Source: Daucus carota subsp. sativus (Eukaryota; Streptophyta; Magnoliopsida; Apiales; Apiaceae). Taken from it: 64,000 bases of DNA. Within the stretch, counting starts at the first letter, position 1, and each line of letters starts with the position of its first letter. The notes under the pieces were generated by a model. That model was not told the origin of the DNA, did not search any database, and was given only the letters and a program-made list of their open reading frames with translations. A program made the translations under genes and the position numbers. Of the stretch, positions 40,517-58,399 are shown piece after piece. The stretch spans positions 53,316,380 through 53,380,379 of the forward strand of contig NC_030383.2 of assembly GCF_001625215.2 (NCBI RefSeq). The letters are read 5' to 3'.

Positions 40517-41795
40517 TCCATGCAGCTCTAGATACGTATTTCAAAGGTGCAGGCAAAGATTAATTATATAAATTACTTCACATATTCTTTTTTCTTTTTT
40601 TTTTTTGCGAACAAAGGATTTTATAGAACTTGCGAATCAGTAAAAAATACAAACTTTCTTCAAAAGTCGTATTACAGGACATCCCCACTGCTTAGGATTT
40701 TCCTAGGAACCTGCCGACTAGCTCCACACTCTAGTTAAAGTATGAACAGACTGTTTTGTTGGGCCGCGCAACATCCATTAACTCCGCAACTCCGCATTAG
40801 TATGATATTGTCAGCTCTAGGACGTGGCCAAACCCGAACGGATTTATTTTCGGGCTCCTCCCAAAAGGCCACATACTAATGGAGTTCTTTGGCTGCTTAT
40901 ATTCAAGACAAATTTTCTTTATATTTTCGATGTGAGATTTGGGTTGAACCCACTTAACATGTTTAACAAAGAATAACAGAGGTTGTGATAAGCTCCTTAA
41001 GCATACGACGACAATCCATAACCATATGATCAAAAGGAGAAGACATGGTTATTGAACTCCTTATTGCATGCACAACCACCAAGCACTCTAACCTGTGTGT
41101 GTTTATCGTTACAGAAACATATGCTGGTGAGCCCATAGAGCCCAGCTCATTTGACACTTCTGTTTTGCAAAACCGGAAGAGCTGATCACTAAAACGAGAA
41201 CGTTCAGAATATTTATCTTGAATGTGTACAACGAAATTAAAAGCTAACTAACAGTAGAGGTGGTAGCTAGAAAATACGTGAAACTCCTACCTCAACTCCA
41301 CTTCTACGTGATCACCTAAAATAATGCTATTGGAATACAACCTATTCTTGATGACTATGTCAAACCAAACAAATAATTAAAACAAATTTAGATTAATTTC
41401 CAACAATCTTCCCCATAATCGAAACTTACGAAGCTTCATCTATGATGCACTTCTAAACCACCATCAATTTTGATGCACATCTCGTAAAAAAAAAAAAAAG
41501 CTTTGGAGCACTTCTCCTCATGGTGCACATAATCACCCATAATTTTAAAAGAGAGGTTCTCCCTTGATCAATTATTCCATGCCTTCTTAATCAATTTGGA
41601 ATTTACAATTCTTTGCCAGATGCCCATATATATCTTTTGCATTTGAAGCACTGTGGCTTTCCTTTGTGCCAACAATCCTTTTATTCATGGCCGAGTTTAT
41701 GATAGTGGTTGCATTGTCCTTCATTGCATGTGCCTTTTGATCATGAAGTTTTAGCTAATAGGAGTCCTTCAATTTTCCTCCATTTTTTTCTTCCC

Positions 41796-42404
41796 TCATT
41801 GATCTCCTTTGGTCGACGGCAGGAGAGAATTGATTAATTCTGAGACGGTTAATTTTGAGAGATCTTTAATATCTTTATGTGAAGAAATTTTAGTCTCATA
41901 CCACTCCGGAAGAGTTACCAAAAGCTTGTCCACGACTCTCTGACTTGAAAATTCTCCACCAAGTAATTTGATTTGATTGACAATGGAAATCAACCTACTA
42001 CCATATTCTTCGACACCTTCATTACTTTTCATCCCCATAATCTCAAGCTCCCTTTTGAGGTTGAGAATTTGCATAAGTTTGGTTTGTTGGTTGCTTTTGA
42101 ACTCTTCTTTGATTTTTTTCCTATGCTTCCTTAAGAGACTCACAACCCATGATTGTTGTAAAAATCTCTTCAAACACCGTTGAATGGAACATGAAAGTGC
42201 CTTTGGCTTTCGTGCCATTTCTTCTTCATGTTTCTTGATTTCGCCTGATGTTGGATTTCTTGGAAGAGGAGTAGACTTAGTGTCACTCTCAATAACGTCC
42301 CATAAATTAAGAGCTTTCATGTATTCTTTCATTTTGATGGCCCATGAATGATAGTTATCGCCTTTGAACAATGCAATAGAGATGGATAAATTGTTTGATG
42401 TCAT
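41796..42404 (-). CDS. Gag-like protein of the Copia element
   Basis: A 202-residue frame opens MTSNNLSISIALFKGDNYHSW, followed by a WDVIES segment; both are typical of the N-terminal gag domain of plant Copia elements (DUF4219 then UBN2-like). A helical region including VDKLLVTLPEWYETK follows, as in UBN2. The frame stops at 41796, and a zinc-knuckle-like sequence (C-x2-H motif in CNHYHKLGH) remains downstream at about 41640-41740 but is interrupted. It is part of the retrotransposon and not a host gene. Confidence 0.75.
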   Translation of the reverse strand: MTSNNLSISIALFKGDNYHSWAIKMKEYMKALNLWDVIESDTKSTPLPRNPTSGEIKKHEEEMARKPKALSCSIQRCLKRFLQQSWVVSLLRKHRKKIKEEFKSNQQTKLMQILNLKRELEIMGMKSNEGVEEYGSRLISIVNQIKLLGGEFSSQRVVDKLLVTLPEWYETKISSHKDIKDLSKLTVSELINSLLPSTKGDQ

Positions 42405-42428
42405 TGAATATGAAAGATAAATACTTAA

Positions 42429-42459
42429 TATATATATGTGTGCGCGCGCGCGCGCGTGT
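42429..42459. repeat. Alternating TG/CG tract
   Basis: ATATATATGTGTG followed by a run of GC dinucleotides and GTGT, an alternating purine-pyrimidine tract able in principle to adopt Z-DNA. It lies in the leader of the Copia-like element, between its primer binding site and gag. Confidence 0.9.
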
Positions 42460-43161
42460 TAAAATATCAACCAACAATCCCTAGATCATGAGGCTCTGAT
42501 ACCATGTATAAAATAAAACAGACCTGTGTGTGTTTATCGTTACTAAAACATATGCTGGTGAGCCCACAAAGTCCATATCATTTCACACTTTTGTTTTGTA
42601 AAACTAGAAGAGCTAATCACTAAATGAGAATGTTCAGAGTATTTATCCTGAATGTGTACAAAGGAATTAAAAGCTAACTAACAATAGAGGTGGTAGCTAG
42701 AAAATAGGTGAAACTCCTACCTCAACTCCACTTCTACGTGATCACCTAAAATAATGCTACTGTTGATGACTATGTCAAACTAAACAAATAACTAAAACAC
42801 ATTAAAACAATTAAAACAAGTTTAGATGAATTTTCCAACAGCTGCTACTTCCCCTTCATAATATGCTGATGACTTGGCCTACACAAGATCGCCTATTTGA
42901 TCCCTTGCAATTATATGTTAAAAAGATAATTTGTATTTCCTATAAACCAAGTATCCAAAATATTCTAGTCCTAGAGTCATGATCAATGTTTAGTGTATGA
43001 AACCAAGAGTCTCCAAATTATTCATATATCTAATTAATGATGAATTCTAGGAAGATTCTAGATATTTTGTCTATCGATATACAGACTGTTATACCAGCAC
43101 ATGTAAATTATTAAGAAAAATAAAATCTTATGTTTTCTTCAAGTTCTGTACCCAACATATT

Positions 43162-44480
43162 TGGTATCAGAGATGTTAATATCTCACTCCTAAAATACAT
43201 AAATCATATTAGTTCTCCTATAAAGTATCATGGCAACAAATAATTATTCAATATTCAGCTATGCATAAAACAGTATTCCCATTTTCAATGGTGAAAGTTA
43301 TGACTTCTGGAGCATTCAAATGAGGACACTGTTTATGTCTCATGATTTATGGGAATTAGTTGTAGAGGGGTACGAAGCAACGGCAACTTAGGGGGAGATA
43401 ACGCCGTGGACAGCGGCTAAGAAAACTGAATTCAGAAATAAAAGAAAAGGGATGCAAGAGCTCTTCTATATATTCAACAAGGAGTCAGCAAAGCCATTAT
43501 TCCGCATAAAATGAGTGCTAAAACTTCAAAAGAAGCATGAGAGTTTCTGAAGAAACAGTTTCAAGGATATGACAAAGTGATCTCTGTAAAACTTCAATCA
43601 CTTTGGAAAAAATCTGATAATTTGCAGATGAAGGAAAGTGAAACTATTTCTGAATTTTTCTCCACATTTTCAACCATAACAAATCAGATTATAAGTTATG
43701 GTAATAGCTCAGAAGACAAAAGGATTGTGATAAAAGCCTCCCTGCAAAATTTCAACATGTGGTAGTAGCCATTGAAGTTTCTAAAGATCTGGCAACCCAT
43801 ACTCTTGATGAACTGATGGGTGCTCTTGAAGCACATAAAGAAAGAATACAAAGATTTGAAAATCAGCCTATAGATCAAGCTTTGAAAATCAGCCTATAGA
43901 TCAAGCTTTTCAAGCAAAAATGAACATCTCTGATAAGAGGGAAGTTGCACATCAAGATGGTAACAAAAGGAGCAGCTGCAACAACCAAAGCAGCAACAGA
44001 AGAAGAAATCAAATTTGGCAAACACAAGAGGCAGAGGAAAGAGGTACAATTTTAATAACAGAAACAATAATTTAAAATGCATTATATGTAACAAGACAAA
44101 TCATGAATCAAGAAATTGAATCTTTTATTGTAAAAGATGCAAAATTCCAAATTATTCTCAGAAGGATTGATGGTTTCAAAATAGAGTTCAAGATAATTTC
44201 TCAGAGCGGGATGGAGATACACAAGTAATTTTTTCATGCATGAATACACAACTGCAACAACACCACTGCTGGTATATTGACAGTGCTTCCAGTAATCATA
44301 TGTTCGGAATTCGAGAGCTATTTGCAGAATTTGATGAAAGTCAACATAGATTCCCGATCCTGACCCACACTGTAATGACATTTTTTCCTCAGACGGTAGA
44401 AGGTAAGGTAATAGCAAGCCCAACTAAAAAACTCCGATTTATTAGATTGATTAGTAGATATCTATATGGGGTTTTGATTT
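43162..44480 (+). pseudogene. Degenerate Copia gag-protease remnant
   Basis: A primer binding site TGGTATCAGAG (43162-43172) is followed by a shattered gag. Recognisable pieces are IPIFNGESYDFWSIQMRT, LWELVVEGY, LQSLWKKSDNLQMKESETI, LDELMGALEAHKERIQRFE, a degraded zinc knuckle, and the protease segment WYIDSASSNHM near 44270. Many frame changes and stops separate them. No integrase or reverse transcriptase remains and no flanking LTR pair was identified. It is not functional. Confidence 0.8.
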
Positions 44481-45249
44481 GAACTTTGTTTTTGATGATA
44501 TTTCATATTTGCCCAAATATCTTCCAAGTCTTGATATAAACTGTCAGCGAAATACCTTTCAAACTTTATACAAAACAATTGACGACTAAATTACCAATGA
44601 CTCATATTTACTAATAGCAGATTATTTTCTAGCAGGTAGCAATTTTTTTTTATAAAGGAGCACTTTATTTTAGTTTTTGCAATCCATACATGCTTATGAA
44701 ACACAACAAACGGAGGGAAATTCGTCTTTTCTGGCTTCCTTCTCCCCTAATATATGGGTTTAAAAATCATTTATTGACAACCTCTACTATAATACCAGCG
44801 GAAGACACTTTCAAAACCAAACTAAACCCGATGATCACTCACATCAAGCACCACAAATATCTGGACAATAACTTAAGGCTGAACACCAAAAACACCTATG
44901 ACCAAATTCAATAAACTGCAGTGGTACAAGCGTGTAATATTGGCTCAACCCGCAAATCAAGAAAAGGTATAAACTTACGAACCTTCACAATCGGCCACAC
45001 ATATATATATCCGATCACAACGCAAGCGCTTCAAATCAAGGACTGTGCAGAGCAATGGGCGATAGCAGGTGCTTTCAATTCAGGACCGTATAGACCAATG
45101 ACAATGACAGAGATGAGGAACACATATATTGTCGCCGCGCACCGCAGGAAAAGAACAGAAATCGTGTATGGGCAAGATTCAAAGCACGTCTGGAACTTAT
45201 TGCAGGATATTAGATTTTTGGAAAATATCGTAGTATTGTAGATTTGTGC
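44481..45249. other. Unassigned sequence between retroelement remnants
   Basis: No known coding motif was found. Two plus-strand frames (44690-44914 and 44921-45241) resemble no family I know. GC content is somewhat higher here than in the array region. It may be transposon leader or filler DNA. Confidence 0.3.
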
Positions 45250-45541
45250 TGTTAGGAATTATAATTTAAATTAGCTATTATTAATAATTATATTAGGGGT
45301 TTACCTAGTCCACAGTGGTTGGTCCCTTATATTTAGGAGTGTGCTTGCTTATTTGTTTTCTGTTTAGAGGTCGTGGGAGTGTTCCACATATTATGCTAAG
45401 TGGGTATATGTCCACTAGCAGTGTGTTTCTATTTAAGCATTGTATTTCCATTCAGTTTGATAATGAAAAAGAACAAGACTTCTTCCTGTTCTATCTATGC
45501 ATAAGCAGCAAGCTTAGTAGTTATTAAATTTTTATTCAACA
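45250..45541 (+). mobile_element. LTR-like segment followed by tRNA-Met primer site
   Basis: Begins TGTTAGGAATT and ends TTTTTATTCAACA, followed by TGGTATCAGAGC (45544-45555), a Copia-type initiator tRNA-Met primer binding site. A TATTTAAGC box and a downstream TTTGATAATG element are placed like an LTR promoter. The 292-bp length is normal for Copia. The matching downstream LTR was not found with certainty. Confidence 0.7.
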
Positions 45542-46174
45542 TCTGGTATCAGAGCTTGAGGGAGTATCAAGGCTTAACAGCCTTCCCTATGGTTTCTTGG
45601 AGGGATAACGATTCATTTCGAGAAGAAGCTCCATGCTGGAATGAAGCTGAAGGCCAGGAAGAAGTCCCAAGAAAAGCATCAACAGAGAAGCAAACAAGAA
45701 GAATCGTTTGTCACTTACAGGGGTTTAGAGGTGCAGAGGCCCATTCACTCGAGGCCCATTCACCATATTTAACACTCACGTTGTAGCACTGGAATGTGGT
45801 AGAATCTTGGAGGCAGAAATAGCAATATTTACTTGGTTATTTCTGGGCTGTATTAAAAGAAGTGTACGGAGTGTCAATATGCAGTGTGTGAAAGTCGGGA
45901 AACAGGAGGAGGTTTGGATGGTCGGAACTGTCGACTTTGTGTGGACTGTGTGCATGCATGTAGGTGGTAACATGCTGATGAACAGGATGCCAGACGGGCA
46001 AAACAAAAGGCCAGACGGGCCAGCCAAACAAAAGGCCACACGGGTTAAGTTGAAAGCCATACCGGCTTGTGAAGAATAGTCATACGGACTCAGAAGAATA
46101 GCTATACGGGCTCAGTTTAAAAGCCATACGGGCTGGGAGGATTTCTTCAGGAAAATTTAGATTAAGGGGGAGAT
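45542..46174 (+). mobile_element. Internal region of a non-autonomous LTR element
   Basis: Lies between the primer site at 45544 and a purine tract AAGGGGGAGA (46164-46173). It has no gag or pol coding; short frames at 45556-45786 and 45807-46079 show no family motif. The part 45990-46135 contains repeated copies of AGACGGGC, CACACGGG and GCCATACGGGCT in a loose 20-35 bp periodicity. Confidence 0.5.
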
Positions 46175-46439
46175 TGTTGGGATTTTAATCAAAATTTTAT
46201 GTTTACGTTATGTTTTGTTTATTTGAATAAGTCAGCCTGGTTCACAGCGTATTAGGATTAGTACGTGGAAGTAGTAGTCAGTTAGGTAGTTGTTTGTTTA
46301 GTTCTATTTAAACTCTTGTAATCTTTTTATTATGCAGAAGATATACAATGTAGTCTCAGGAGTTTATTGGCTCTTGTACATATATATTTTCATCTTGGTT
46401 TTTATATGAAGTTATCATTTTAGTAGTTTAATTTTAACA
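46175..46439 (+). mobile_element. LTR-like segment, inserted at Copia pol border
   Basis: Begins TGTTGGGATTTT directly after a polypurine tract and ends TTTTAACA, with a TATTTAAAC promoter-like box near 46307; all fit a Copia 3' LTR of 265 bp. It adjoins, without a gap, the truncated reverse transcriptase of the minus-strand Copia element beginning at 46440. It is too diverged from 45250-45541 to be its obvious partner. Confidence 0.55.
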
Positions 46440-49400
46440 TGTCAAAGTGTGCTCATATGGGCATTTTTGAAAACCTTGCTTGAGAAAGTAGGCATTTATA
46501 CGATTGTACCAGGCTCTTGGGGCCTGTTTTAAGCCATAAAGTGCCTTCTTCAACCGCATAACTTTATTTTCTTCTCCTGTCTTGACATACCCCGGAGGCT
46601 GATCCACGTATACTTCTTCATTCAATTCGCCATGTAGGAATGCCGACTTGACATCTAGCTGAAAAATAGGCCAAGAATTCAGAGCAGCTAAAGAGATTAC
46701 AGAACGGATAGTTTCTTGCCTTGCAACCGGAGCGAAAACCTCTCCGTAATCAACGCCATATTCTTGCTTGTATCCCTTTGCTACTAAACGAGCCTTGTGC
46801 TTGTCAACTTCGCCTTTCTCATTCAGTTTAGTTTTATAAACCCACTTCACACCGATTGTTTTGTGACCCTTAGGCAGATCAACTAGCTCCCAGGTATCGT
46901 TCTTCTCTATGGACTTGATTTCAGCGTCCATTGCTTGCTGCCACTTTGTGTGCTTGACTGCTTCTTTAAATGTAAGTGGTTCAGAATCTGCAAAGAGAGC
47001 ATAATGGGCAATAACATCATCATCTGAAAGATCATCGCCGCTTTCATAATCAACCATCCAAGCAGGTCGCTTCCTTAGTCACTGATTCGGAAGAGAATGG
47101 TCAGATGTAGAAGAACCTGACACTTGATTATCAGCTGATGGAACCTCTGACTCATCAAGTATAATTTGATGTTGTTGCTGTGTTTTCTCAGAATTCTGCT
47201 GTGTTTTCTCAGACCAGTTCCATACATTCTCTTCATCAAAAATGACATCTCTACTGGTAATAACTTGATTTGTTGCAGGATTGAACAGTTTGTAAGATTT
47301 ACTTGGTTCGCTGACACCAAGAAAGACACACTTCACACTCTTATCATCAAGTTTCTTCCTTTTTGCATCAGGTATGTGTGCATATGCTATGCACCCAAAT
47401 ACCTTAAAGTGATCTACAGCAGGTTTAAGTCCACTCCACGCTTCTTCAGGTGTCTTGTGTTTAACAGAGAATGTCGGACATCGATTTAGAACATGAATTG
47501 CCCACATAACTGCTTCAGGCCAGAAACGCTTAGGAACTCCTCCTTTGACCAGCAAGCTTCTAACCATATTGAGAATCGTACGATTTTTTCGTTCAGATAC
47601 CCCGTTCTGTTGCGGTGTATATGAAGCTGTGAGTTGTCTTTTGATGCCTGCTTCTTTACAAAACACGTCAAACTCCTGAGAGCAGTACTCTCCCCCACGA
47701 TCTGTTCGGAGTGTTTTGATCGGTCTGCCTTTTTCTTTTTCAACAAGAGCTTTAAAGCATTTAAATGCAACAAATACTTCAGATTTTTCCTGCAAGAAAT
47801 ACACCCAGGTGTTCCTACTAAAGTCATCTATAAATGAAACAAAATACCTTTTGTTTCCATTTGATGTTGGATTGAGTGGCCCACATATATCTGAATGCAC
47901 CAGATCCAAACAAGCTTTTGCTCTCAGTGCCTTTCCTTTTGGAAATTGTTCACGATGTTGCTTGCCAAGTACACACTCTTCACATACTTTTGATGGAACT
48001 GTGATCATAGGTAGTCCAGTCACCATTTGCTTCTGATGAAGTGTTTGTAAGCCGTTGAAATTCAAGTGGCCATATCGAAAGTGCCACATCCATGAATCAA
48101 CTTCCTTAGCAATCAAACAAGTGTGAACATTTGTAATATTCAGCGGAAACATTCTGTTCGATGTCATTTGAACGACAGCAATGGAACCCCTTACCGGATC
48201 ATATATCTCACAAGTACCTTTCTGCAAAGTTATGATATAACCTTTTTCTTGCAATTGACCAGCACTTAGCAAATTAGTTTTGAGCGAAGGGATATAAAAT
48301 ACATTTGAAATTGTTTCAACAAAGTCATTCTTGGTTTTAATCTGAATATTTCCCTTTCCCATAACATCAACTTTTGAATGATCACCAAAACTAACAGTGG
48401 TACGAAAACTTTCATTCAAGTATGAAAAAGAAGACTTACTACCAGTCATGTGATTGCTAGCGCCTGTATCGACATACCAAACTTCTGAATCAGTCTCCTC
48501 AGCAGCATGAAATGCCATCAGAAGTGTCTCTTCTTCCTTGCTTTCAGCAAACTTCAATTGCTCTTCTTTCTCCTTGTTGTATGGCATCTTTGTGTAGCAT
48601 TCATTACGATAATGGCCATATTTCCCACATCTGTAGCACTCAATGTTAGATTTATCATATGTTTCTTTTCCACGGTTATGAGGGTAAACATCATCTCTCT
48701 GGAAATTGTTGTGTTGTCTGCCTCCATCTTGAGTTGCACGACCACCTCTTCCTCTCCATTGACCTCTTCCACGACCTTGTCCTCTTGATCTCGAGGATTC
48801 AACAAGTGACAAGGCTTTTAAAGCTTGTTCCTCCGTACTACCATGTTCTGTGTTGCCACGATTTAGTTTTTGTTCATGCACCACCAAAGAGCTTTCTAGC
48901 TCATCAATTGACATCTCCTCAGTATTCTTTGACTCCTCGATCGAACAAACAATGTAGTTGAATTTTGGATCCAAAGATCGTAAAATCTTCTCTACAATGG
49001 CACCGTCTCCAAGCTTATCACCATAAGTCCGCATATTATTTGCAATAGCCATGGTCCGCGCAAAGTAGTCATGAACGGACTCTCCATTTTTCATTTCAAG
49101 ATTCTCGTAGCTTTTCCGTAGGGCCTGAAGCTGTGCACGCTTCACTCTTGCTGACCCTTGATATTTCTTTTTTAAAGAATCCCATATGTCCTTTGAAGTG
49201 TCCTTCTGCAGAATGGTCTCCAAAATTGTACGATCAATTGCCTGAAAGAGATAATTTTTCACCTTCATATCCTTTAATTTCTGTTCATCAAGCTTTTGTT
49301 GTTGTTGAGCCGTCAAAGTAGTACCTTTTTCAGGAATAATATATCCCGTCTCCACAAGATCCCAGTATTCTTTAGATCTTAAAAAATTCTCCATCAACAT

Positions 49401-49469
49401 GCTCCAATGGTCATAATGACCATCAAACCGAGGAATGGCAGGCTGCACAAAATTACCTTCTGTTGTCAT
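46434..49469 (-). pseudogene. Copia gag-pol polyprotein, truncated and with one stop
   Basis: The frame starting at 49469 shows, in order, gag, a zinc knuckle C-x2-C-x4-H-x4-C (about residues 278-291, CYRCGKYGHYRNEC), an aspartic protease DTGASNHM with Asp334, a GAG-pre-integrase segment (WHFRYGHLN), the integrase core (HSDICGPL, FIDDFSR, then SERKNRT), and the start of reverse transcriptase (WELVDLPKG, KARLVAKGY, FLHGEL). One TGA at 47079-47081 interrupts the frame between integrase and polymerase; it sits where an Arg codon would be expected, so C-to-T decay is likely. The catalytic centre of reverse transcriptase and RNase H are missing, cut off near 46440 by an LTR-like segment. Otherwise the frame is strikingly well preserved. 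Confidence 0.93.
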
Positions 49470-49509
49470 CTCTCCTGTTGTTGCAAATCACCAAAGCTGC
49501 TACTGTTGT

Positions 49510-49591
49510 GCTCTGATACCATGTTAAGTGACCAATTCTCCTAAAACCTCAAGGTGTTAGGAGGAGGGCTTACCAGGATCATATTCTAACA
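49510..49591 (-). mobile_element. Short LTR and tRNA-Met primer site of the Copia element
   Basis: On the minus strand a 70-bp segment (49591 down to 49522) starts TGTTAGAATATGATCCTG and ends CACTTAACA, followed immediately by TGGTATCAGAGC (49521-49510), a primer binding site, and 40 bases later by the gag start. It closely resembles the 73-bp LTR of the TRIM at 56748-57160, sharing TGTTAGAATAT, GATCCTG and CTAACACCTTGAGGTTTTAG. This suggests that the Copia element has, or had, miniature LTRs. The other end of the element is lost, so the LTR limits are inferred from TG/CA and the TRIM match. Confidence 0.7.
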
Positions 49592-50144
49592 TGTGCAGCT
49601 TCGAACTGAGGCTCGGAAAGACTGATACTCTGCTACATTTGCTTCGGAGGAGATATCAGATTTGGGCAGGCTTGGCTCGTATGGGCTTGGAGGCTATACA
49701 CTTGTTTAGGAATAAGCTGATTTATTTGTTAAATAAGGAGGCTTGACATGTACCTGTCATAAAACTTCATTTTTCTTTAAAAAAATGATTTGTTAAGGTT
49801 ATAATTAGATAGTTAAATTATAATTAAACTTAGTATATGAATTCTAACATCCAAACTCATCCAAATTGTTAATATGAAATATTATGAAATCCATAACAGA
49901 ATCAAGAATAGAATCCAAAATAGAATCATATAGATATATCTTTTGCAATGATTATTTCACATAGAATCATGTTATTTTTAATCTATTTTTATTGTTAAAC
50001 ATGGTGGATACTATTTTTATTCATAATAAAACATTAATCAACTTAAAATTTGAATTTAATTCAAGTTTTTGATGAGTATCTACATTTGATTCTAAAGTGT
50101 TCTGTGTTGTCTTTTTTTTAAGAGTGTTTTTTTTAAAGCAATGA

Positions 50145-54000: not shown

Positions 54001-57000
54001 AGTTTGGTGAGAAGTCAATAATGCTAAATAGCTGGTCTTGGGAAAGAGAGGGGCTCATTGTGTAGGTTTCGAACTCCAGTTGAGAGGAAATGTTAGAATC
54101 GACAACTGCGACTTCACTTCCAACTGCCTCCCAGTAAGCCCCAGAGCTAGATTGAATTTGTGCCTCATTAACATCTCCGAGTTCCTTGCTCATCCATCGA
54201 CCAAAGCTATCAAGATTTTTAAGGCCATCCAATGGCTGCTTCAAGGCTAAATGATTGGCTTTCGCATCTACTGTCGCACTGTTCTCCACCTCTGTTTTCA
54301 TGAAGCTTCCAACTTCTGCAGCTGCAAACTGTCCATTCTGCTCACCATGTTGTGACTCCGTGTAATTAAACAAGTCAAAAGAGTCAATGTTCCCTTCATA
54401 AAGCATAGCATTCTGATTGTAATTTGGGTACTGTTGCAAATTCTGTTCCATGGACCACTTCGGCAGGTGCAAAGATTCACCTTCAAAAGACTATTTGCAA
54501 GTTGGATTAAAACATGCAGTTATCTCTGGCAGATTTTAAGAAAAAAAAACTCCTAATTTACATGCATATCCCAATTTGATTGTTGATGTAAAATACACTT
54601 ATGATTTCCATAGACTAAATACAGTTTTGAATAAGAATTTAAACTTTTACAAAATGTCATGGGACTATTCATAATTAGATATCTTATTTACGCATGTTAC
54701 AGCTACTTATATCGATTGCCCTTAAAGAAATTGTAAATTATCATTCTTGGAAAAATATAAAACAGAACATAACATTGCTTTTTACAGAGATTACCCAAGA
54801 CAAATTTCTCAAAGATTAGAGCGTCACCTTGCTGTTCTTGACATGAAACTTAAGCTAGTCAGCATGTGATGAATAATCAAAAATGAAACTTTAATTTCAA
54901 GAATTTTTATAAAAGCTAAAAGTTGGATACACATTCAACGATTATGTTTCCTAACAAGAAATTTAGATTTTCAATTTTTATTGAGAAAATAAATGATCCA
55001 TATCAGAAGGCAATCACATCTCACAAGTAGCTAATTATATCTTCATGGGTATATTTTTAGGATGAATAAAGGAGGCCAATCCCCAAGCCACCCGCCCCCC
55101 AGGAGAGGGAAAGTCTGGGTAGACAGATCAGTTTTGGTACTAGAGGCAAATATGAAGAAAAAAAAAAAAAAAAAAATCCTGCCAAAAGAAAACATAAAGT
55201 AGATACTATTTAACATTACATGACGAATGTACTTTAAGTGTTTTCAAGTAATTCCATACCTGCCACCCTCCTTGGCCACGTAAATGATTTCCAAACTCCT
55301 CAATTTTGCCAAAAGCATCTCCGCAATCTTGGGCAGAATTTTCATTTCCCCATCCCGTTACAATATTCAGGGCAGATTCTCTAGACGGATGTATGGGTTG
55401 AATGTGTGAAGTGGCTTGAATGCTTCCTTGGTAATCATCTGTTAACAGTTCAATACATTATAATCTCCCATAGAACAGTGTTGAGCTATTTACGACTTAA
55501 ATGGTTGAAAACAATTTGTAGCAAATACTTTACTTGAAAGAGCTGAATAATAAGGCACAGAAAGTGCATCATCCATCTTTTCTGCGTCAGACTGCTGCAA
55601 CTTGTGAAAGGATTGGAGCCCAGAACCTGATCGGTAACTATATGCTGCAAAAAAATTAACATTTTGGATTATTCAAGTATAATAGGAAAAAATTTCTAAA
55701 AAATATAAAAACATTGTAAAACACACTAGTTAAAGTTGAATATAAGCATGATCTAAGCTTGACCACTGAATATGGCTTAGGAACTAAGATGGCATGTCTA
55801 AAAACAAACCTGACTCAGCATCTGCATATTCTGAGGTTTGAGTGCTGTTCAGGCTTGTTGTGTCAGTAGTTTGTGAGGGCACATTATAACCATATTGCTG
55901 AAACTTGGAAGATAGAGAGCTGTCAACTTCAGTATCAGGCAAAATTTCTTCTTCTAGAGAGTTGGGAATAACTCCTTCAGTTCCCCTGGTACGATTGTAG
56001 TGTGTCCTGTTCCCCTGAAATGGATATTTTTTCTTAAAACTATATAAGCAAGCTAATATATAGTCTCATGCATAAGTAATGTATTGATAGTCTCATGCAT
56101 AAGTCGTATACTGATATCTCTTATATAGACTAGGATATCGTATATCTCCTTCTGCTTGGCATTAGTATTTTAATATAAAAAAAACACCCACAACTTTGCA
56201 AAGTTGGGATGTATTAAAAACTCTGGAGAGACATTCTGTGACCTTGTAACATTAAAGTGATTTAGAGTCACTTACATATCTGCGGCCTTGCTTTTCTAGT
56301 GCTAGACTGAGTGAAAGTTAACAAGCATGGATTATGGGTTTTGAAGAAGACTTTGGGGTACCACTCCCTGGGACTAGGCCTCAAATACCTTCAGTTTATA
56401 TAAGACAAATTCATAAAATTTTATTGTTTGTTATCCACCAATCCAATATATATCTTATTGATGATCTTAGTATCTCTTCAACAATTAGAGTAATATAGCA
56501 GACAGTTAAAAGTTTTAAAAAAATCTCTACACTTACAAAACAACACACTTAAAATTTACACCTTTTTCCCTAAATGTTTAAGATACTTTTAGTTACTATA
56601 TGAGTTTTATATCAAAGTGCCCACAATTCTCACCAAAAACTATCAAGTGACTACCCGGGGGACTCATTTTAGCCAATGGAATCACTATATATATCACTAT
56701 GTTAAATCTTGAAAAATAATTAATAGAAAACTTAATAAAATCCAAATTGTTAGAATATAAGATCCTGAAAAGGGCCATCCTCTAACACCTTGAGGTTTTA
56801 GAGTAACTGGTTCCTTTACATGGTATCAGAGCCAGGTTGGCAGAGGACTCAGGTTCGATCCCTGCCACCCCCAATATTCTCACAATTTATAGTGGCACGA
56901 ATGGCAAATTAATGCTCCAAAGATGAGCGTCCCTGATCCACTCTTCGACCCATAAAGGGGGAATGTTAGATGAGCGTCCGTGATCCACTCTTCGACCCAT

Positions 57001-58399
57001 AAATGGGCTCTCGAGTGAGGGGGAATGTTAGATGAGCGTCCGTGATCCACTCTTCGACCCATAAATGGGCTCTCGAGTGAGGGGGAATGTTAGAATATAA
57101 GATCCTGAAAAGGGCCATTCTCTAAGACCTTGAGGTTTTAGAGTAACTGGTTCCTTTACACAAATCAACAGATGATGTGTGAGTCACATGGATTACAAAA
57201 AAGAACTAGAACCAAAGATCACAAAGAAATATAAAAAGGTTGTAGCAAACACGTCATTTGTTTGTTAACTTTTTCATTTATATGTTTTCAAGATTTAGCG
57301 GAGTGATATATATAGTGATCATAGTGACTTAAATGAGTCTCTGTCGAGATCGGTTAGTCACTTGTAGTTTTTGATAAAAATGGTGGGCACTTTGATATAA
57401 TACCCGTTACTATATTATCATTTGTGTGACCCGACTTGTTCCAGCTTTATTAAGTATGAAAAATCTAATATGCTTGTATATTTATCAACAAGGTTTGATG
57501 GTAGACTGATTGATCCATCCTAAATGGATCAATACTGGATATAGTCACTCTGTACTTTGAACCTTATCATTTTAATCCTGTTTCCTGCTAGACACACACA
57601 CACACACACACATATATAAGAGTAACACTCTATATGTGTGTGTAGTATGTATGTATGAATATATATATAAATATTATATATATACACACATATTATATAT
57701 ATATATATATACATATATTTATATATATAGGCTAGTATCATATACAAACCAACCATTAAATAAATACTAAAAACCAGCTTAGTTTAATTTAGTGATATTC
57801 TCAATACGATTTAGTGATATTCTCTTTAGAATTTAGTGATTAGTGTTGCAAAATTGGTGAAAATTTCCGGGAATTGGTGAAAATCGGTGAATCTGTTCTT
57901 GTACTCGATTCTTGTGGTGGTGGCGGTGGTGGAGATGAAGGCGGTGGACATCGAAGGAGGTAATGGAGCAACAGTTTCGGCAGGAGTGTTCGGCAGATCT
58001 GATATATAAACAAAATCGAGCAATGCCTTTATATTGGCAGTAAAGCAGCGGAGATGGCGGAGATAAAGACGACGAAGGTGGAGGAGGTGACGCACATGGA
58101 GTGGTGAAGGAGGAGAAGGTGGAGGGGATGGTGGAGGTGGGGTAGACGTTGGTGGTATAGACGGTGGAGGCGGACTGGAGGGACAACAGACGTGGAGGAG
58201 GCGCATTGGAGGGACGCCGGACGTGCAGAAGGCGGAGGGGGCGGCGGACCGAAGTTGCCAGAAGTGGAGGTGGAGCTTGAGATGGAGGTGGAAACGGGGT
58301 TGTTGAAAGATTTGGTGATTTTGTGTTTAGATTTTAGTGATATTGCAGCTGGGTTTTTAGTTTGTAGAATAAGGAGATCTGTAGTACAATAAGACTCTC

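Follow-up and report, generated by a model that had tools for sequence, protein, structure and literature searches.

Coding Copia relatives have already been named for miniature retroelements, and the premise of the original prediction, that the autonomous elements on which TRIMs depend are unknown, is outdated, candidate Copia partners having been published in 2012 (PMC3281118) and 2016 (PMC4717578). In the part of the earlier paper drawn on here, Gao et al. (2012; PMC3281118) described FRetro64, a Ty1-copia element of 5,234 bp with LTRs of 76 and 90 bp, as the putative autonomous element for FRetro129, a SMART of 292 bp from Oryza brachyantha and grasses. The later survey (Gao et al. 2016; PMC4717578), as far as its excerpted results go, looked for larger relatives of 289 TRIM subfamilies and obtained them for 11, with LTR identities of 79–98% and similar LTR size; among these 11 larger elements, four have the full set of coding domains, and the other seven are short or truncated. 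Among the 56 Copia families listed in Table 1 of a study on Medicago (PMC2533021), the shortest LTR measures 126 bp.

The locus described here lies in a stretch of 64,000 nucleotides of carrot DNA, which was analysed as a whole and is referred to below as the window. It contains a damaged Copia copy on the minus strand, with foreign LTRs to its left, and a TRIM about 7 kb to its right. The features are as follows.

49592–49596, plus strand: TGTGC, candidate target-site duplication next to the Copia 5' LTR; the same five bases occur at 45245–45249, directly before LTR X
49522–49591, minus strand: Copia 5' LTR, 70 bp, TGTTAGAATATG...CACTTAACA, assigned by homology to the TRIM LTR
49535–49564, minus strand: predicted hairpin within the Copia LTR, with counterparts predicted in the TRIM LTRs at 56777–56806 and 57117–57146
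49510–49521, minus strand: Copia primer binding site TGGTATCAGAGC, by direct reading, with a spacer of 0 to the LTR
49470–49509, minus strand: Copia leader of 40 bases, from the primer binding site to the gag ATG
47079–49469, minus strand: gag-protease-integrase ORF of 796 aa (Pfam), ending at an in-frame stop, codon 797
46440–47078, minus strand: truncated N-terminal part of the reverse transcriptase, RVT_2 positions 1–153 of 244 (Pfam), in the frame of the gag ORF
46175–46439, plus strand: LTR Y, 265 bp, TGTTGGG...TTAACA, taken as a 3' LTR, following a purine tract and adjoining the truncated reverse transcriptase
45250–45541, plus strand: LTR X, TGTTAGG...TTCAACA and then TCTGGTATCAGAGC, taken as a 5' LTR, with a primer binding site at 45544
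56748–57160, plus strand: TRIM, 413 bp, with LTRs at 56748–56820 and 57088–57160 and a primer binding site at 56821–56832

Coding content and damage of the Copia copy

The Pfam domains Retrotran_gag_2, Pol_BBD, gag_pre-integrs, rve and SH3_retrovirus were found in the 796-aa ORF; Pfam listed no protease family, and a protease is presumed to be present within the ORF from the layout. Gag is followed by integrase and then by RVT_2, all in one frame with a single in-frame stop, and by this domain order the copy is classified as Ty1-copia. A Copia element with a presumed 5' LTR had been predicted at 46434–49591, and both were borne out, but the Copia part stops at 46440; the ORF as listed extends to 46434, and its final two codons are situated in the foreign LTR. 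When the copy was inspected for two LTRs, a target-site duplication, a primer binding site and a purine tract, the 5' LTR and the primer binding site were present, and the candidate duplication TGTGC was shared with the left end of the foreign sequence. No reverse transcriptase tail, purine tract or 3' LTR of the Copia copy was found in the 64-kb window.

The missing part of pol was searched for by comparing the window with the Copia pol of a plasmid-collection record (L002; 899 residues). Residues 18–564 match the window at the Copia copy only, and the remaining L002 pol has no match in the window at an E value of 1 or better; as RVT_2 in L002 extends to residue 650 (Pfam), the unmatched part includes the reverse transcriptase tail. 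RNase H lies beyond the reverse transcriptase tail in Copia pol; it gave no Pfam match on the L002 pol, and from the cut in the reverse transcriptase it is presumably missing from the Copia copy. A motif scan of six raw frames revealed no YVDD/YADD word in the Copia part; the four that it listed lie at other places in the window (36361, 37686 and 38887 on the minus strand; 42862 on the plus strand), and L002 pol showed homology at none of them. The copy therefore falls short of the complete open pol, with full reverse transcriptase and RNase H, of an autonomous element. Because of the in-frame stop, the shortened reverse transcriptase and the 3' LTR that was not found, it is not autonomous; it is dead and incapable of autonomy.

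The collections scanned for relatives were viral and prokaryotic and are uninformative on plants. The 796-aa protein had no confirmed relative among their viral contigs and genome contigs; four plasmid records and one phage record were matched, none of them covering half the query. Two records listed as Actinomycete plasmids of 4.6 and 5.2 kb (L002, 1–4649, and L001, 1–5159) carry a Copia-type pol with ~38% identity to the Copia copy over 45% of the query, and both are probably eukaryotic contaminants. The 20-base LTR core had 0 matches among the viral contigs and two exact matches in one Stieleria assembly (L003, 5325–5344; L004, 4890–4909), and the 5' words matched one viral contig. The Stieleria loci share only 20–24 matching bases with Copia or TRIM, within a GC-rich bacterial repeat, and the viral-contig locus gave nothing against either element at E 1e-3; in view of the short matches and the lack of wider similarity, these words were taken as chance and not as relatives. 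A literature text search with LTR and primer-site words retrieved no plant paper; only the 11-base TGTTAGAATAT was matched, in 11 papers of which, by title, none is on plants (one concerned human LINE-1).

Homology of the Copia and TRIM LTRs

The TRIM has two LTRs of 73 bp each, identical at 71/73 positions (97%), and is flanked by a perfect 5-bp target-site duplication, CAAAT (56743–56747 and 57161–57165), which fixes the borders of its LTRs and makes them a standard against which the Copia LTR can be assessed. The purine tract AGGGGGAA, representing its PPT, precedes the 3' LTR, and the longest stop-free run across six frames is 69 codons. The element is thus shorter than 1 kb, has two LTRs, a target-site duplication, a primer binding site and a purine tract, and is non-coding as judged by stop-free runs, as is characteristic of a TRIM. 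In its interior (56909–57092), the purine tract occurs three times with TGTTAG directly after it (GGGGGAATGTTAG), at 56957, 57019 and 57081, in tandem units of 62 bp; copies 1 and 2 continue with ATGAGCG and the last alone continues into the LTR, and it looks as if the junction of purine tract and LTR has itself been duplicated. An inverted repeat surrounds the TRIM (56604–57403), with arms of 87% (56604–56642/57365–57403) and 78% (56661–56739/57261–57339), and the TRIM is perhaps nested inside a foldback or MITE-like element.

The Copia unit, read on the minus strand from 49591 to 49522, runs from TGTTAG to TTAACA over 70 bp; it is named an LTR on the grounds of homology and placement, repetition within the Copia copy forming no part of the basis. 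Homology to the TRIM in LTR and primer site was observed directly. When aligned globally in pairs, the Copia LTR and the TRIM 5' LTR have the same base in 61/75 columns (81%), and the Copia LTR and the TRIM 3' LTR in 59/75 (78.7%). BLASTN puts the two values at 79.7% and 77.0% over 74 columns, and MAFFT, which aligned the three sequences with fewer gaps, at only 50/73 (68%) and 48/73 (66%). The percent identity varies with the gap setting, and the homology of the LTRs, as judged from these alignments, does not. The local score of the Copia LTR against the TRIM LTR is 72, which was reached by 0/5000 dinucleotide shuffles (maximum 29), and within the window BLASTN returned an E value of 2e-11 with just the LTR as query, and of 4e-16 when the query was lengthened to include the primer binding site.

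The likeness described in the original prediction was confirmed. The three words said to be common to both LTRs, TGTTAGAATAT, GATCCTG and CTAACACCTTGAGGTTTTAG, are all exact in 49522–49591 (minus strand) and in the TRIM 5' LTR (56748–56820), the third having one change in the TRIM 3' LTR; the lengths are indeed similar, at 70 and 73 bp, and the same 12 bases, TGGTATCAGAGC, directly adjoin both LTRs with a spacer of 0 (49510–49521, minus strand; 56821–56832, plus strand). We take this sequence to fit the initiator Met tRNA. The Copia LTR is two bases shorter around 49580–49583, where the TRIM LTR has TATAAG close to its start (56756), and a scripted word scan showed no TATA word in the Copia LTR.

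The extent of the match was determined by BLASTN with positions 46434–49700 as query, extending 109 bases beyond the outer LTR end: the match to the TRIM begins at the LTR border verified by the target-site duplication and ends where the primer binding site ends. It is this overhanging query that establishes the outer border, the shuffle comparison having used pieces cut at the LTR start. The 40-base Copia leader has no similarity to the TRIM interior (995/1000 shuffles score as well), and a shared interior, as in OsajLTRA10 (PMC4717578), was not found by BLASTN or shuffles after the primer binding site. With respect to the size and identity of TRIM partners (79–98% in the results cited from PMC4717578), the carrot pair has 70 against 73 bp and an identity on the edge of that range, about 77–81% by pairwise alignment and BLASTN and lower with MAFFT.

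As controls, the Copia LTR was compared with five further stretches that resemble LTRs, all from the window, namely the two clear LTRs X and Y, two repeat-pair stretches, and one stretch before a primer-site-like word. X and Y showed no similarity to the Copia LTR, its score with them being reached by 310/1000 and 855/1000 shuffles, respectively; neither did the two repeat-pair stretches at 41.1–42.8 kb (712 and 619/1000) or the stretch 43000–43162 (977/1000). For each TRIM LTR in the same control, 0/1000 shuffles reached the score. Among the stretches tested, the likeness as measured by these scores is therefore specific to the Copia–TRIM pair, and chance similarity of the two LTRs is excluded by the BLASTN E values, the 0/5000 shuffles and the five-stretch control.

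A hairpin is predicted in the core shared by the LTRs. The 30-base hairpin pieces from the three LTRs have z values of -3.87, -2.54 and -3.62 (200 shuffles each; pieces picked after inspection), and the whole-LTR folds have -0.67, -1.19 and -2.44, scarcely better than shuffles in two of the three. The stem is CTCCTAA/TTAGGAG in Copia and CTCTAA/TTAGAG in the TRIM, with an extra C on the left and an extra G on the right in Copia; in the pairwise alignment these single-base indels on opposite sides keep the stem, and the MAFFT alignment sets the gaps elsewhere, without the paired stem indel. It would be rather surprising if the shared core proved to be a selected RNA hairpin acting as a cis signal by which Copia proteins recognise the TRIM, in packaging, dimerisation, RNA end formation or strand transfer, and such a hairpin might be the least that an LTR of 70 bp needs in order to work. 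The whole-LTR folds and the gap placement by MAFFT speak against this idea. The hairpin is treated as a lead only, because the pieces were chosen post hoc and, in this sample of three LTRs, two are almost identical.

Neighbouring remnants and the breakage of the Copia copy

LTR Y, at which the Copia sequence ends, is unrelated to the Copia LTR and opposite in orientation to the Copia copy. X, with its primer binding site, and Y, with its purine tract, have the same orientation and lie ~630 bp apart, with unrelated sequences. Their likeness is no better than chance (375/500 shuffles score as well), and they are therefore hardly two LTRs of one element; the stretch 45250–46439 is a chimera or consists of two adjacent remnants. 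Two further degenerate remnants with Copia gag were detected by tblastn with the Copia protein, at 41091–42833 and 43163–44341, one of which is on the minus strand between ~300-bp repeats. Neither Rfam (at the gathering score) nor ARAGORN produced a match over the window (0 each).

Two 5-mers drawn at random from the window are the same with a probability of 0.0017, but several junctions were inspected, and the TGTGC found beyond the Copia LTR and before X is therefore only suggestive of a target-site duplication. Perhaps the copy was broken by insertion and subsequent deletion: a retroelement would have inserted into the Copia reverse transcriptase, and the inserted element's LTR and the Copia 3' LTR, both starting with TGTTA, would then have been the end points of a deletion at these starts, in which the tail of the Copia copy was lost and the outer TGTGC preserved.

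Origin of the shared LTR and comparison with known systems

We consider it probable that 49510–49591 represents the true 5' LTR and primer binding site of a degenerate Ty1-copia element, and that this LTR shares its ancestry with the miniature LTR of the nearby TRIM. Common ancestry is favoured by the gag, integrase and reverse transcriptase in Copia order behind the LTR, by the LTR match of 61/75 with its shuffles and controls, and by the published pairs of like design, FRetro64/FRetro129 and the 11 larger elements. The 70-bp LTR is most likely the Copia copy's own, because it is single, the TRIM interior is absent and the primer binding site leads into the gag leader. BLASTN of this LTR against the window found no second Copia LTR; apart from the self-match, it returned both LTRs of the TRIM and a match of the palindromic core to itself. 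The related LTRs and the identical primer binding site would also be expected from insertion of a TRIM into the 5' end of the Copia copy, the case named beforehand as a refutation; it is unsupported and very improbable, as two LTRs with an interior between them would be expected after a simple insertion, and this contradicts the layout, in which there is a single LTR, no second repeat and no TRIM interior, and the gag start codon (49469) follows 40 bases past the primer binding site. Somewhat less improbable, and still unlikely, is a chimeric 5' end, in which a template switch at the shared primer binding site put a TRIM-type LTR on a Copia body whose family normally has another LTR. The TRIM similarity does end at the last base of the primer binding site, and the 3' LTR that would serve for comparison is missing, but about one in five sites differs from both TRIM LTRs, so that the donor was neither this TRIM nor a very near copy.

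Under common ancestry of the LTRs, intact members of the Copia family would supply, or would have supplied, Gag, protease, integrase and reverse transcriptase, and these proteins would also serve in the packaging, copying and integration of the TRIM RNA, which has the same primer binding site, a related LTR core and LTR ends that are nearly the same. The TRIM lineage itself would probably have arisen from a Copia element that lost its interior, or by ancient LTR exchange between the two. The Copia family could have been a plausible source of enzymes for the TRIM, as far as the sequences tell, the copy itself being a relic. The autonomous partner foreseen in the original prediction is thus upheld for the homologous 70-bp LTR that belongs to the Copia element and for the same primer binding site, but not for the copy as such, which is broken and whose similarity to the TRIM ends at that site. 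The explanation as a whole, common ancestry included, is weakened by a Copia–TRIM identity that is far under the 97% of the TRIM's own LTRs and barely reaches, or falls short of, the 79% at which the published range of 79–98% begins. It is also weakened by the 3' LTR, purine tract and end of pol, none of which was found, by the similarity ending at the primer binding site, where OsajLTRA10 and FRetro64 share interior sequence with their miniature elements, and by the presence of one copy only. It is possible, if rather doubtful, that the LTRs do have a common ancestry and the TRIM is now mobilised by another Copia family of the genome. The divergence of ~19% between Copia and TRIM, against 3% between the TRIM's own LTRs, is in keeping with such a mover, and a paper of 2024 (PMC10886601) suggests, in the passage considered and from other cases, that LTR homology is unnecessary for trans-mobilisation; on the other side, 0/5 other LTR-like stretches of the window resemble the Copia LTR, and the TRIM, compared with the window by BLASTN of its LTR, matched the Copia LTR and its own LTRs only.

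As it stands, the carrot locus offers a single dead copy. A close likeness is FRetro64, as portrayed in the cited part of PMC3281118, which is likewise a Ty1-copia element with miniature LTRs and a similar primer binding site, named as partner of a miniature element; in contrast, the interiors of FRetro64 and FRetro129 are 96% identical and their LTRs share an 11-bp motif only, whereas in the carrot pair the LTR is shared, the interior is not, and the Copia element is broken. In OsajLTRA10/OsajRetroS10, according to the excerpts of PMC4717578, the Copia LTR has the size of the TRIM LTR (115 bp in both), comparable to the situation here; OsajLTRA10, however, shares its interior with its TRIM, which the carrot Copia does not. 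Proteins are short or truncated in 7/11 of the larger elements in these excerpts, as in the carrot copy, although the elements are described as complete. The Medicago families (Table 1 of PMC2533021) are also coding elements with short LTRs, their minimum of 126 bp contrasting with 70 bp here. In the Rosaceae, the consulted part of PMC5659011 links coding Copia and TRIM families of the Ale lineage with TGTT/AACA ends through their primer binding sites, as is the case here, but their LTRs are ~150–270 bp with unusual ends and their TRIMs exceed 2 kb. The 70-bp LTR is slightly below the 76 bp of FRetro64, the shortest LTR of a coding Copia element in the literature compared (as cited from PMC3281118). 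If intact copies exist, the question arises of how promoter, RNA end and integrase signals all fit into an LTR of this length, and the pair would join the few published examples in which a Copia relative has been named for a miniature element. The Copia/TRIM pair fits this published kind, and such pairings have already been described.
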